From assembly GCA_030694265.1 (NCBI GenBank), contig JAUXYP010000008.1, forward strand, positions 1 to 64,000: a stretch of 64,000 nt of DNA, given 5' to 3'. Shown piece after piece: positions 19,336-24,627 of the stretch. Made by a program: the position numbers and the translations under genes. A model generated the notes under the pieces. That model made no database searches. It was given only the letters and a program-made list of their open reading frames with translations, and had not been told where the DNA came from. The first letter of the stretch is position 1; every line of letters starts with the position of its first letter. The DNA comes from Sulfuricurvum sp. GTDB taxonomy: Bacteria; Campylobacterota; Campylobacteria; Campylobacterales; Sulfurimonadaceae.

Positions 19336-19869
19336 TCAAAGTATCCTTGTGATTTCCAGCAGACTGTCCGGGAATAAAAAGTGGTTTTCCTTTAGTGCTT
19401 TAGAATTGATTAGGATGACCGGATTACGCTCCATCTGAATCGAGAGTAGTAGGCCGCTTTCTGCGAGCTTGTTGGAGTCATATATGGCAGTTATGGTACC
19501 AGAGGATGTAGTGGCAGTATGTACTTTTTTGAGTTGAGACACACTTGCTTTTAGTACATAAATAAAATGATAAGAGGCAACGTTATCGACTTTATCAAAT
19601 GGAAGTATCTCTATGAGGATGGGATGAGTATTGATCCGTCCATTTAAATTTCGCATAAGTGTCTTCATGGATGATTTGGCTATATCATCGTCTTCGCGAT
19701 CATAAACAATCAAAATTTTGAATGGAGATTTATTGTTTGCAAATATGAGATTTTTTTCAAGTATTGCAATTTTAGGCAATAGAGTAAGCTGCGTATCCAA
19801 TAGAAAGGTATCATAGGATGCGTTGCAACTAAATGATGTTAGGGCAAGCATCATGATTATTTTTTTCAA
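19336..19869 (-). CDS. YfiR-like (DUF4154) periplasmic protein
   Basis: A 177-residue protein with a signal peptide (MKKIIMMLALTSFSCNA). The mature part has the YfiR/HmsC-type layout: an N-terminal helix with KIAILEKNLIFANNKSPFKI, an alternating alpha/beta core, and the C-terminal VILINSKALKENHFLFPDSLLEITRI that matches the family ending. In Pseudomonas, YfiR restrains the diguanylate cyclase YfiN from the periplasm. Here it is the last gene of a coupled trio (four-base overlap with the TonB receptor) and sits near a membrane GGDEF-EAL protein. The family call is from pattern memory; function is inferred. Confidence 0.65.
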   Translation of the reverse strand: MKKIIMMLALTSFSCNASYDTFLLDTQLTLLPKIAILEKNLIFANNKSPFKILIVYDREDDDIAKSSMKTLMRNLNGRINTHPILIEILPFDKVDNVASYHFIYVLKASVSQLKKVHTATTSSGTITAIYDSNKLAESGLLLSIQMERNPVILINSKALKENHFLFPDSLLEITRIL

Positions 19870-21920
19870 AATGTACCCCTTAACGTAGCCATAAACGTGC
19901 GACCTATTGCAGGATAGTCTCCGTTATAGGTTTGATTTGGACTAGGATAAAGTTCACGCTCATTAAAAAGGTTCTTAACGCTGAATTGGATCTCACTGTG
20001 AAGATGCGGTAGTTTATATCCAATAGTAGCATCGATTATCCCGATTGCTTTCATATCGTCTCGAAGATCAGCGGAAGCTCTTGGTGTACTCCCTTGCCAT
20101 CGTCCGGATACCGATCCGTACCAGTTTTCATATAGATCGTGAGAAATGAATCCACGCAGTGTGTCAGACGGGGTATTTGCGAGAGTAATGCCGTTGCCAT
20201 CTTCGGCCAAGACATGCGTATATGCGGCATAAAAGGTTGTTGTATCGTAGCGTTTTCGCCACTCGCTTTCGATACCTCGAATAGTGCTTTTTAATCCATT
20301 GATATATTCATAACGGGCCAATGGTGTATTGTATTGCAAGTAAATTTGATTGCTGTTATCGAGTTGAAAAAGATTAAGAGATAGGGTGTGTTCTATGTCG
20401 AATCGATGGATGAATTGGCTTTCATATGCCGTTACTGTTTCGGGGAGTAGCTCTGGATTCCCCCATCTTGCTTTATTATTGAGGGTAAACATCTCTTGCC
20501 ATGAAGGATTTCTGTGGGCATGGGAGACTGAAATTTTAATCGAATTGTCAGAGTCAATGGTGTAAATAGCTGCGATTCTTGGAGCAATTTGTGCATTCAT
20601 TGTATTGCGCTTTTCGACAGTTAGTGAAGCATAGCCGATCCACGAAGAAGATAGTGGCCGTTCGTAGTTGACATAGGCGTTCAACTTACGTATAAAGCCA
20701 TCAGGATTGAAAAATGGGCGAGTCGCTGAATAATCAGTCATACCGATACCGCTGTCCCTATCCGTACTGAGGGTTTTCTCGGATACCACACTACTCCATG
20801 ATCCTCCTACTCCGAAAGTTGCATCTCCACCGTATATTGTTCCCTCAATGGTGTTATTGACCTGATAGGTTCGGATAATAGCTTCGCTAATTCCGTAAAA
20901 ACCATTAGGATAGGTAACGGCTACTGTTGGCGGAGTAAGCGATGGGAGAATGAGTCCTGCGGGACCAAGGAGAGAATTACTGGTAAAACTGTCTTGAACC
21001 ATTACGGCTTGCAGGGTTCCTGTAAAATCTGCTGCTGTATAGTGAGCACCGGTACGTACTTGCCATTGATCAATATTATAGTGGTCATCATCGGAAGCAA
21101 GGGCATAGTTAATTCCCCCACCGGAGCCATGCCGGTACGAAGAGAGGCGTCCATCTGCGAAAAAGGCCCCTTTTGAGATCGATGCGGAAAGCATAGTAGC
21201 ATCGGTAGCTGATGGGGCACCACCTGATCGAGAGAGTGGTGCATTTACCGTGCCGAGTAAATTATTAGACAGACCATCCTTTTCATAGGAGAGTGAGAGA
21301 TTGTCATGAACCGTATAAAAATCTGCGGCAAAAGAAAAGTTGTCATGCGATGATGCATACGATGCTCCGGCTTTCTTGGTGCCATAGTTTCCTATTGAGG
21401 TGAACCATCGTCCACCTTCTTCTGAGGCTTCCCCTTTGTAGGTTGTTACCATGATGGATCCGGCATAGCCTGAATGGCCGTTACTATAGTTGCCAGGGCC
21501 GCGTACAACTTCAATGCGCTTGATCATATCAATGGGCATTGTCAGGTAGGCGGTATAGCCATCAAAGAAAAGGTCATTGACCTCGATACCGTCAACGATC
21601 AGCTTGCTCTGACCGTAAGCAACGGGATTGGAACCTCGAAAAACGGGATTAAACAAGGAAAGATTGTCACTGGCGATGTTAACTCCCGCCACAAGAGCAA
21701 GGGCTTCTTTGAGTGAAGAAGCACCTGCATGAGAGAGTTCTTCTCCATCAAATACGGTCATAATATACGGAAGATAGTCGATATTTTCCCGGTGAATTTT
21801 GGCTGTTTTTGAAATAATAGTCATATCGTTAGTGAGACTCTTCAAAAGATCAGAATCGGACTCATTTGCTAACAGTGAAAATGGAATTAAGAGTAACGCA
21901 GAAGAAAAGCGGGTCTTCAT
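19866..21920 (-). CDS. TonB-dependent outer-membrane receptor
   Basis: A 684-residue receptor with a signal peptide (FSSALLLIPFSLLANES). The plug domain spans roughly residues 50-160, with VFDGEELSHAGASSLKEAL, an NPVFRGSN motif and IKRIEVVRGPGNYSNG. A C-terminal beta-barrel with VKNLFNERELYPSPNQTY and the terminal aromatic ending TLRGTF follows. Such receptors import siderophores, cobalamin or other ligands using TonB, or sense them. The ligand is not evident. It overlaps by four bases both the acyltransferase before it and the YfiR-like gene after it, and no siderophore transport genes are nearby, which suggests sensing rather than bulk uptake. Confidence 0.9.
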   Translation of the reverse strand: MKTRFSSALLLIPFSLLANESDSDLLKSLTNDMTIISKTAKIHRENIDYLPYIMTVFDGEELSHAGASSLKEALALVAGVNIASDNLSLFNPVFRGSNPVAYGQSKLIVDGIEVNDLFFDGYTAYLTMPIDMIKRIEVVRGPGNYSNGHSGYAGSIMVTTYKGEASEEGGRWFTSIGNYGTKKAGASYASSHDNFSFAADFYTVHDNLSLSYEKDGLSNNLLGTVNAPLSRSGGAPSATDATMLSASISKGAFFADGRLSSYRHGSGGGINYALASDDDHYNIDQWQVRTGAHYTAADFTGTLQAVMVQDSFTSNSLLGPAGLILPSLTPPTVAVTYPNGFYGISEAIIRTYQVNNTIEGTIYGGDATFGVGGSWSSVVSEKTLSTDRDSGIGMTDYSATRPFFNPDGFIRKLNAYVNYERPLSSSWIGYASLTVEKRNTMNAQIAPRIAAIYTIDSDNSIKISVSHAHRNPSWQEMFTLNNKARWGNPELLPETVTAYESQFIHRFDIEHTLSLNLFQLDNSNQIYLQYNTPLARYEYINGLKSTIRGIESEWRKRYDTTTFYAAYTHVLAEDGNGITLANTPSDTLRGFISHDLYENWYGSVSGRWQGSTPRASADLRDDMKAIGIIDATIGYKLPHLHSEIQFSVKNLFNERELYPSPNQTYNGDYPAIGRTFMATLRGTF

Positions 21921-22474
21921 AGGTATTCTTTTATTGAAGTTGTATATTCTAGGGTGGATAACATGACAGGATAGCGTTCAGCACCTATGAGGTATTGAAG
22001 CGGACCAATTGGCGTATAGGGGAGACCAGAACAATTGAGAAGCCGGAGAAAAGCCAGTTCAATTGCCCCGACAAATTGTACTATGCCATAATCCAATGAT
22101 ACTCTATGAATTTCATTTTGCATTGCTTGAAGAATTTGCATCGTTTTTTTGAAAGTTCTGTGCGCTGAGAGAACAGTAATGCGTGAAATTTCAGCGGTTG
22201 GCTGATCTCTTTGAAATTTTATGGAATCAATTGTCATCGAATTAAGTGTAGGCAGCCCCAGTGCACTATTAGGGAGGATGAGGCGGCACGATGCGATGAG
22301 AGTATCATTTTCCCAGACACCGAATAACAGTGCATACTCGTCATATTGATCGTATTCGACTCGTTTTCCATCCTCTTTGGGTGCGAAAAAATGAAATTCT
22401 TCCACAAAAATATCATATCGCTGTTGTAAAATTGCAATCTGTTCTGTTTTAATTGATGACATTCTGCATTCCAC
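21917..22474 (-). CDS. LuxI/FeeM-superfamily acyltransferase (autoinducer-synthase-like)
   Basis: A 185-residue protein carrying the catalytic pattern of acyl-homoserine-lactone synthases and their relatives: R19-x3-F23, then D42-x2-D45 (EYDQYDEY), CRLILP at 63-68 and EISR at 95-98. The tryptophan usual near LuxI position 34 is not seen; F29-F30 lie there. N-acyl amino acid synthases (FeeM) and PEP-CTERM-associated acyltransferases share this pattern, so the acceptor is undetermined. GTG at 22474 is chosen because AGAGGA lies eight bases before it; an ATG four codons on is too far from that site. It is the first gene of a trio with a TonB receptor and YfiR-like protein. No luxR is adjacent. 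Confidence 0.75.
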   Translation of the reverse strand: MECRMSSIKTEQIAILQQRYDIFVEEFHFFAPKEDGKRVEYDQYDEYALLFGVWENDTLIASCRLILPNSALGLPTLNSMTIDSIKFQRDQPTAEISRITVLSAHRTFKKTMQILQAMQNEIHRVSLDYGIVQFVGAIELAFLRLLNCSGLPYTPIGPLQYLIGAERYPVMLSTLEYTTSIKEYL

Positions 22475-22704
22475 GCTACGGATCCTCTTATATTTTAAAA
22501 AAGTAATTAAAAACAGTTAATCATAGCTAAAATAGGCTGTTTAAAGTGTTATTAAATGAATTTTACAATAGAATACATAACTTTAAAGATAGATTCAGGT
22601 TAGTTTGCTAGCAATGTGATAATATTTTGATATTTAAAATAATAATATATAACTGTCAGTGAATTAAAGTGAATCGTTTTCTTTTGAATTTAAAAGGTAT
22701 TTTA
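22475..22704. promoter_or_regulatory. Divergent control region between the acyltransferase trio and the GGDEF-EAL gene
   Basis: About 230 very AT-rich bases. On the minus strand TATGAT-like and TATAAG-like hexamers could serve as -10 boxes for the trio; on the plus strand several TA-rich hexamers lie near 22615-22655. No single promoter or operator stands out. A shared regulatory region would couple the two divergent units. Confidence 0.4.
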
Positions 22705-24627
22705 ATGACATGTCGCTTTAATAGCCGTCTTTCGTATAAAATTGTTGGATCATTAGTTTTGGTTTATATTTTGATTAGTGTGATACTTGGAATAGTTTTT
22801 AGTATGGTAGTTGAAAATACGATGCTTGTTTCAGAAAAACAAAAAGCAAATCTTTTGTTGCAAACCATTGAAAAACCGCTTCAGATTATGCTTTATCTGA
22901 AATTTTATGATCAAATTTCCGAAAAAGTTTCACCTGTAGTCTCTGTCCCTGATGTAGCAGAATTGTTAATTCGCGATTCCAGTGAAAAAGTTTTGTATTT
23001 TTATAGTAAGCATAAACAACCAGGCTCATCCGTTCATAAAGCAGTGAGCATCACGCATTCGATTAAAGAACCTACTACTAGGCGAGTGATTGGATCGGTT
23101 ACATTGCGCTATAGTGATTTGGCTTATCATGATACACGTGGATCGATTTATAAAATGTTATACAGTATTGGCATACTAATGGTTGTTTTATTTTTTATGG
23201 CGGCATGGTGGGTTCGCTATTTACTTTCACCATTGACGATCATTGCTCGTAAAGTTCAGTATTATCAGCCTGGTGACATTATGGAACTGGAGGAGAATGG
23301 GAGTATAGAGATAGAGCAAATAGTGATGGCATTTAATACGATGCAAAAGGTTACTAATCTCTATCTTAAAAAGATGGAAGAGATGAATGCCTCATTAGAG
23401 ATAGCAGTTAACGAAAAAACACTCGAGCTTGACAATCAGTATTACATAGATAATTTGACAGGATTACCTAACCGTTACCGTCTTCAGGAAAAATTAATGA
23501 AGGGGGACATTACGGCACTTGCAATTGTCAATATAGATGATTTTAAGGAAGTTAATGACTTTTTTGGAATTGCGATGGGTGACGAAATGCTGGTTGAACT
23601 CGGCGCATGCCTAAATGAGGTGTCAAGTCCGTGCTATCGACTAGGCGGTGATGAGTTTGCATTAGCATTTTATGGGCTTTTTGATCAAACTGAACTAGAA
23701 CATCGCTTGACAGTACTTATTAAGCTATTGGATGAAAAGGCCTATATAATAAAAGGGCAGAGTCTAAATATCAGAGTGACTATCGGTGTTACTGTGGGCA
23801 GTGAAAAAGCGCTTACACGTGCCGATATAGCTTTACATCATGCGAAACATAATAAAAATCAGATTGCTTTTTACCATCAGGTAGATGGAGGGGAGGCACG
23901 ATACCACTCCAATCTAATGATGGCGGCTCATATACGAAAAGCACTTTTTGACCATCGGATCATTTGCCATTATCAGCCGATAGTCAATATAAAGACGGGA
24001 AGAATTGATAAATATGAGACTCTGGTTCGAATGTTGGATGAAGAGAATAATATTGTGCCGCCGATGGATTTTTTGCCCATTTCAAAAAAGACAAAACTTT
24101 ATCCTCAAATTAGTCTTGCGGTAATCCATCAAGCCTGTGCTCTTTTTGCAACGCGTAGTGAAGAATTTTCGGTTAATTTGTCTGACAGTGATATCCGTAA
24201 TCCACATACGGTAAGTGAAATCATTAAAGCCATAAAGGATACGGGAACTGGTCCTCGAATCGTTTTTGAGATTTTGGAATCGGAAGGGATTGAAAATTAT
24301 GATGAGGTGACTCAATTTATTTCTACTGTGAAAGCATTGGGGGCAAAAATTGCAATTGATGATTTTGGTACCGGGTATTCTAATTTTGAAAATATACTTA
24401 AATTAAGTGTTGATTACATTAAAATAGATGGTTCGCTGGTCCGTGAAATTAGTTCTAACACACGTCATCGCATAATTGTTGAAACTATTATTGATTTTTC
24501 TCAAAAAATTGGCGCCAAAACAATTGCAGAATTTGTCACTGATGAGAATACTTACAATATCATCAAGGAATTGGGAGTGGATTATTCACAGGGGTATTTT
24601 ACGGGTAAGCCAATTCCGCTTACATAA
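22705..24627 (+). CDS. Membrane-bound sensor protein with GGDEF and EAL domains
   Basis: A 640-residue protein. A first membrane helix (VGSLVLVYILISVILGIVF) is followed by about 115 periplasmic residues, a second helix (SIGILMVVLFFMAAWWV) and a HAMP-like linker. The GGDEF domain has the intact RLGGDEF signature, predicting cyclase activity. The EAL domain reads YETLVR in place of EAL but keeps the metal-binding residues (NLSD, LESEG, DDFGTGYSN, KIDGS), so phosphodiesterase activity is possible. The layout resembles YfiN plus an EAL domain. ATG at 22705 is preferred, behind AAAAGGT; GTG at 22669 would add 12 residues without a ribosome site. Confidence 0.9.
   Translation: MTCRFNSRLSYKIVGSLVLVYILISVILGIVFSMVVENTMLVSEKQKANLLLQTIEKPLQIMLYLKFYDQISEKVSPVVSVPDVAELLIRDSSEKVLYFYSKHKQPGSSVHKAVSITHSIKEPTTRRVIGSVTLRYSDLAYHDTRGSIYKMLYSIGILMVVLFFMAAWWVRYLLSPLTIIARKVQYYQPGDIMELEENGSIEIEQIVMAFNTMQKVTNLYLKKMEEMNASLEIAVNEKTLELDNQYYIDNLTGLPNRYRLQEKLMKGDITALAIVNIDDFKEVNDFFGIAMGDEMLVELGACLNEVSSPCYRLGGDEFALAFYGLFDQTELEHRLTVLIKLLDEKAYIIKGQSLNIRVTIGVTVGSEKALTRADIALHHAKHNKNQIAFYHQVDGGEARYHSNLMMAAHIRKALFDHRIICHYQPIVNIKTGRIDKYETLVRMLDEENNIVPPMDFLPISKKTKLYPQISLAVIHQACALFATRSEEFSVNLSDSDIRNPHTVSEIIKAIKDTGTGPRIVFEILESEGIENYDEVTQFISTVKALGAKIAIDDFGTGYSNFENILKLSVDYIKIDGSLVREISSNTRHRIIVETIIDFSQKIGAKTIAEFVTDENTYNIIKELGVDYSQGYFTGKPIPLT

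Follow-up and report, generated by a model that had tools for sequence, protein, structure and literature searches.

Four neighbouring genes of the sulfur-oxidising bacterium Sulfuricurvum sp. were analysed within the window, that is, the whole stretch of DNA under study (64,000 nucleotides, positions 1 to 64,000 of contig JAUXYP010000008.1); their coordinates are given in Table 1. The acyltransferase gene is the first of an operon that continues with a TonB receptor and a YfiR-like protein, and the ORF coordinates are those stated in an earlier note on this DNA and confirm that these minus-strand genes have four bases in common at each junction (21917-21920 between the acyltransferase and TonB genes, 19866-19869 between the TonB and YfiR-like genes). 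A shared divergent region of 230 bases had also been described; with the listed starts the gap is 194 bases, and a length of about 230 bases is recovered if the GGDEF-EAL gene begins at the Met preferred by most relatives. A promoter scan of 22475-22668 returned promoter-like matches no better than chance, and no Fur-box-like site was found in the window, which is weak evidence, as the consensus was of the E. coli type.

Table 1. Genes and intergenic region of the four-gene cassette in the window
Feature	Position	Strand	Remarks	Basis
YfiR-like gene	19336-19869	-		ORF call and family profiles
TonB receptor gene	19866-21920	-		ORF call and family profiles
Acyltransferase gene	21917-22474	-	Proposed synthase	ORF call and family profiles
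Intergenic region between acyltransferase operon and GGDEF-EAL gene	22475-22668		Divergent; common to both units	ORF coordinates
Membrane GGDEF-EAL gene	22669-24627	+		ORF call and family profiles

The four proteins

The earlier note proposed a LuxI/FeeM-like synthase and called for a profile search of 21917-22474. The encoded protein of 185 amino acids exceeded the cut-off of PF13444 (43.6 bits; cut-off 22.4), and fell below those of the LuxI model PF00765 (22.1 bits; cut-off 24) and of TIGR03694 (54.8 bits; cut-off 111.95). TIGR03694 is the best NCBIfam model for the protein and is matched by all 35 members of the acyltransferase family, with scores of 47.6-81.8 for the four other members tested. 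The PDB matches of the family profile were the AHL synthases TofI (the best, E 2e-6), LasI, RpaI and BjaI, and weak OlsB-type matches were also obtained. The motifs D42-x-x-D45 and E95-x-S97-R98 are invariant in the alignment of the 35 acyltransferases, and dN/dS is well below 1 in every member tested. An AF2 model (pLDDT 81), built only from sequences of the window and related loci, has BjaI, RpaI, TofI, FeeM and LasI as its nearest folds in Foldseek, and the VIA-align Z scores of FeeM (16.8, over 169 residues with an rmsd of 3.9), TofI (16.2) and LasI (16.0) amount to ties. On its sequence and modelled fold, the acyltransferase is classed as a member of the LuxI/FeeM superfamily with an intact core, as had been proposed. 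An ordinary GNAT without this core, which according to the earlier note would undo the idea of a circuit, is excluded by the invariant residues and by the matches to FeeM and AHL-synthase folds.

At the position of the LuxI Trp (position 29; W34 of LuxI), which is W in the aligned TofI, LasI, RpaI and BjaI, the 35 family members have Y (14), F (13), W (3) or another residue (5). The LuxR signal-binding domain PF03472 was found in none of 34 carrier genomes, which excludes a LuxR partner among them and bears out the description of an autoinducer-synthase-like gene tied to a TonB receptor and not to LuxR. The exosortase domain PF09721 occurs in only three of these 34 genomes, and not in the window's own, excluding an exosortase-linked enzyme. 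Judged by sequence, the protein fails the AHL-synthase signature and is not a typical AHL synthase, because the Trp is absent, the LuxI and exosortase-acyltransferase scores lie below their cut-offs and LuxR is lacking from the 34 genomes. Synthesis of an N-acyl amino acid is our preferred guess over that of an AHL, with family resemblance as its sole basis.

The TonB receptor (684 amino acids) comprises a plug and a barrel (PF07715 plug, 55.2 bits; PF14905, 28.8 bits) and by these features qualifies as a TonB-dependent receptor; an STN signalling domain was not found in it. TIGR01783 scored 97.6 bits, under its subfamily cut-off. Siderophore-receptor models are the top scorers, yet below cut-off, and the plug resembles that of the colicin I receptor (E 2e-5).

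The YfiR-like protein (177 amino acids) has an N-terminal signal sequence and is predicted to be periplasmic. Its claimed kinship to YfiR is supported as a probable remote homology. The PF13689 (DUF4154/YfiR) score of the window protein is below cut-off (22.0 bits; cut-off 24.9; E 2e-4), single-sequence hhalign against E. coli YfiR gave no significance, and nine of 30 members have E values below 0.01; three paralogues of the same kind exceed the cut-off (25.2-35.2 bits). All 15 of the best fold matches to a weak AF2 model (pLDDT 58) are YfiR or YfiR complexes (E about 0.001-0.01), among them the P. aeruginosa structures in oxidised and non-oxidised forms. These remote yet convergent matches point to a YfiR/HmsC-like identity. 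No conserved cysteine pair was found in the YfiR-like family, which makes control by disulfides, as in the P. aeruginosa protein, improbable. P. aeruginosa YfiR has a weak affinity for L-Trp or vitamin B6, with a Kd in the tens of millimolar, and binds them in a hydrophobic pocket located at the YfiB site (PMC4887326); by analogy this may serve as a precedent, though one of very weak binding, for a small-molecule ligand.

The GGDEF-EAL protein (652 amino acids) has two apparent transmembrane helices, a weak HAMP match and both catalytic domains (EAL, 206.7 bits; GGDEF, 67.1 bits), and its alignment with E. coli DgcN spans the periplasmic region to GGDEF. The EAL residues E450, N503, E534, D564, D565, K585, E621 and Q641 are kept in all 38 proteins with data, whereas the GGDEF motif is intact in only 10 of 39 module-linked proteins, the remainder having SGDEF (20), GSDEF (4) or other forms (5); SGDEF-type motifs are no proof of lost cyclase activity. 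Because EAL is fully kept and GGDEF often eroded, phosphodiesterase activity is the likelier output, and that of a plain YfiN-type cyclase is not upheld.

Linkage, loss and exchange in Campylobacterota

Of 397 Campylobacterota genomes scanned, 30 had a strong acyltransferase match and 49 a YfiR match; the 30, together with five further Sulfuricurvum genomes, form the carrier set of 35. All four genes lie side by side in 29 genomes, and contig ends divide the cassette in two more (G415 and G427; L061 with L132, L066 with L133), across eight genera and three families. Included in the 29 are one locus in which the GGDEF-EAL gene runs past the contig end (L016) and two in which it lies in two ORFs (L015 and L067); the split at L067:11711-13660 (G107) is a frameshift or a sequencing error. 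The GGDEF-EAL gene is divergent in Sulfuricurvum and co-directional in the other cassette-bearing genera. At one locus (L019) the four genes stay together despite internal rearrangement. Comparison of up to three neighbours on each side showed a common flanking gene in 4 of 233 cross-family locus pairs and in none of 132 Sulfuricurvum-g23 pairs. The four-gene association is real and beyond chance, because the genes recur side by side in 29 genomes while the cross-family flanks are unrelated. The neighbourhood survey therefore upholds the four-gene unit, and a scattering of the genes among relatives is excluded by the 29 contiguous cassettes. Among the 397 genomes, 28 have both the synthase and a module-type YfiR, two the synthase only and five YfiR only (Fisher p = 1e-35, a nominal value uncorrected for relatedness and phylogeny).

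Other arrangements were also found. The acyltransferase is present without YfiR in G039 and G338, and in G039 (L023:9138-11520) it stands alone and divergent from a gene for a 519-residue membrane GGDEF protein. In G335 and G408 it lies elsewhere in the genome, unlinked to the receiver, and overlaps a PF04072 (LCM) carboxyl-methyltransferase gene (L078:7457-8924 and L079:8255-9783), pointing to a methyl-esterified form of the product; both of these acyltransferases carry the LuxI Trp. The cassette tree departs from the families, with G335 (family f9) nesting among f1. This placement of the G335 receiver (L118) inside another family suggests horizontal transfer of the module. No plasmid relatives of the synthase or YfiR were found with tblastn, and a contig scan beyond the phylum with strict patterns returned only a Campylobacterales bacterium and Sulfuricurvum, relatives whose acyltransferases are 51-68% identical to that of the window.

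The earlier note regarded the circuit as self-contained, which is true of most carriers. In five genomes (G176, G419, G297, G335 and G408) the receiver has no functional synthase linked to it. In G297 a decayed acyltransferase remnant with internal stops (L084:8874-9086) immediately precedes an intact TonB-YfiR-GGDEF-EAL set. In the receiver tree (TonB, YfiR and GGDEF-EAL) all five, including G297 with its pseudogene, branch within clades that bear the synthase, an indication of synthase losses. In G322 the HpcH gene, which is the upstream neighbour of the synthase in relatives, abuts YfiR-GGDEF-EAL, and neither synthase nor TonB was detectable between HpcH and YfiR; this resembles a paired loss of the two. 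Synthase-less receivers, in turn, can be likened to receiver-only LuxR solos. In addition, TonB-YfiR pairs adjoin HisKA/HATPase histidine kinases at four loci (L124-L127), and contig 9 of the window's own genome carries a second TonB-YfiR module with a 420-residue GGDEF protein (L121:6524-10571). Because no acyltransferase accompanies the TonB-YfiR pairs with kinases or a GGDEF cyclase in all cases examined, the pair is read as a generic receiver, to which the synthase is an add-on of one subfamily; with kinases, it would be a general outer-membrane-to-kinase module.

Synthase alleles appear to be exchangeable among Sulfuricurvum strains. Between G026 and G379 the acyltransferases are 63% identical, as against 91% for TonB, 88% for YfiR and 93% for DppC, and dS is 3.05 for the acyltransferase and 0.55 for tonB; between G012 and G035 the identities are 65%, 88%, 87% and 95%, respectively. 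Nucleotide identity falls sharply across the acyltransferase gene and the beginning of tonB and rises again beyond these limits, and exchange with such sharp borders reaching the tonB start was seen at the window's 21917-22474 and at L015, L083, L016 and L018. Two receiver clades, {L014,L016,L018} (AU p 0.0001) and {L015,L017,L083} (AU p 0.011), are rejected by the acyltransferase tree, which gives no rejection for the two close pairs alone (p 0.22 and 0.16). The pattern fits allele exchange combined with faster change of the synthase. One synthase type is defined by four residues (P71, Q105, G139 and Q148). Co-swapping of synthase and receiver was looked for and not found, with no site in TonB, YfiR or GGDEF-EAL tracking the synthase type. 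Because the synthase has been exchanged without co-variation of the receiver, these sequences count against a tight, allele-specific pairing of synthase and receptor.

A proposed circuit and its competitors

The best explanation, to which we give about an even chance, is that the four genes form one functional unit in which the acyltransferase product feeds its receptor. The acyltransferase would acylate an amino-acid-type acceptor, and the resulting small amphiphile would be exported from the cell. The TonB receptor would then capture the cell's own product, or similar molecules of its neighbours, and pass it to the periplasm; that the product of the cassette acyltransferase is the ligand of the receptor is what we infer. 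The imported molecule may alter the YfiR-like protein, which would release or engage the periplasmic domain of the GGDEF-EAL protein and so change c-di-GMP turnover, most likely hydrolysis. In favour of such a unit are the linkage, flank turnover and co-occurrence of the genes, the core and fold of the acyltransferase, the low dN/dS, the lack of LuxR, the occurrence of TonB-YfiR as a general receiver, the paired loss in G322 and the cohesion at L019. Counting against it are the exchange of synthase alleles without corresponding receiver changes, the receivers that lack an intact or a linked synthase, and the remoteness of the YfiR homology; moreover, YfiR is known for restraining a cyclase, whereas the activity kept here is that of an EAL enzyme. 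A more specific form, to which less than an even chance is given, is a LuxR-independent quorum-type system, with an acylated amino-acid signal, TonB import, a YfiR-like switch and a c-di-GMP phosphodiesterase, in which some strains would only receive, others would only produce, and synthase alleles could be swapped.

Most TonB receptors serve to take up scarce nutrients, and the cassette may serve scavenging instead: a surfactant or metallophore-like amphiphile would aid nutrient capture, TonB would import the loaded form, and YfiR and GGDEF-EAL would report on supply, without cell-to-cell signalling. The siderophore-receptor scores (below cut-off), the resemblance of the plug to that of the colicin I receptor and the synthase-less TonB-YfiR-kinase paralogues all fit this reading, which is nevertheless considered unlikely, as an acyl amino acid made by one enzyme has no obvious set of metal ligands, the cassette holds no other biosynthesis genes and, as weak evidence, a Fur-box-like site (E. 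coli-type consensus) is lacking from the window. Still less probable is that a membrane aminolipid or a surface amphiphile, formed by the acyltransferase, is itself the output of the pathway, the enzyme being only co-regulated with a receiver that senses something else. PF13444 includes aminolipid N-acyltransferases (PMC11631085), N-acyl tyrosines of Stieleria change biofilm communities (PMC7293339), and both the weak OlsB-type matches and the missing co-variation of synthase and receiver are consistent with such a role. However, the acyltransferase heads a TonB-YfiR operon and not a set of lipid genes, none of the four cassette genes was recognised as encoding an O-acyltransferase, the acyltransferase is confined to one receiver subfamily, and in G322 it has apparently been lost together with TonB. 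Horizontal co-transfer of two independent units, the synthase and TonB-YfiR-GGDEF-EAL, with no common function would account for the departure of the cassette tree from the families (G335 within f1) and for the few genomes in which the synthase is unlinked or missing; it is rated very improbable, given a cassette that persists with overlapping reading frames at non-homologous sites in three families, its retention after rearrangement and the paired loss.

If the proposed circuit is correct, acyl signalling would proceed by active uptake at the outer membrane, as opposed to diffusion to a transcription factor. Campylobacterota carriers, which are without the LuxR signal-binding domain, would gain a candidate acyl-signal pathway. 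For many of the N-acyl amino acid synthases discovered so far no receptor is known; the cassette offers a candidate receptor and second-messenger output for a synthase of this type.

Comparison with known systems

In the literature searched, no published account was found of this four-gene cassette, of YfiR and TonB receptors as one system, or of a LuxI-type system in Campylobacterota. The cassette enzyme is like FeeM and NasP (TIGR03694, exosortase-associated) in its fold, that of FeeM, and in the TIGR03694 matches of 35/35 members, but the window protein scores 54.8 against a cut-off of 112; PEP-CTERM genes accompany NasP/TIGR03694, whereas TonB-YfiR-GGDEF-EAL accompanies the cassette enzyme and exosortase is absent from 31 of 34 genomes. 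With the LuxI enzymes BjaI, RpaI, TofI and LasI it has in common the fold, the D-x-x-D and E-x-S-R core and profile matches, and it differs in its replaced Trp (W in 3/35), its PF00765 score below cut-off and the lack of LuxR (0/34).

In the YfiBNR system of Pseudomonas and E. coli, periplasmic YfiR works with a c-di-GMP enzyme of the inner module and a partner in the outer membrane, a layout that the cassette would match through its probable YfiR-like protein and its membrane-bound GGDEF-EAL enzyme. The outer-membrane partner in YfiBNR is the OmpA-like lipoprotein YfiB, whereas that of the cassette is a TonB receptor, and its output is YfiN, a cyclase without EAL, in contrast to GGDEF with an intact EAL; moreover, the cassette has an added acyltransferase and a YfiR-like protein without conserved cysteine pairs. 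The YfiR-like and TonB families of TOL_0243/TOL_0244 (NF053591/NF053590) are matched weakly here, at scores far below their cut-offs (20.8 against 125 for NF053591 and 42.4 against 645 for NF053590), and the consecutive locus numbers of TOL_0243 and TOL_0244 suggest that a TonB-YfiR pair occurs outside Campylobacterota.
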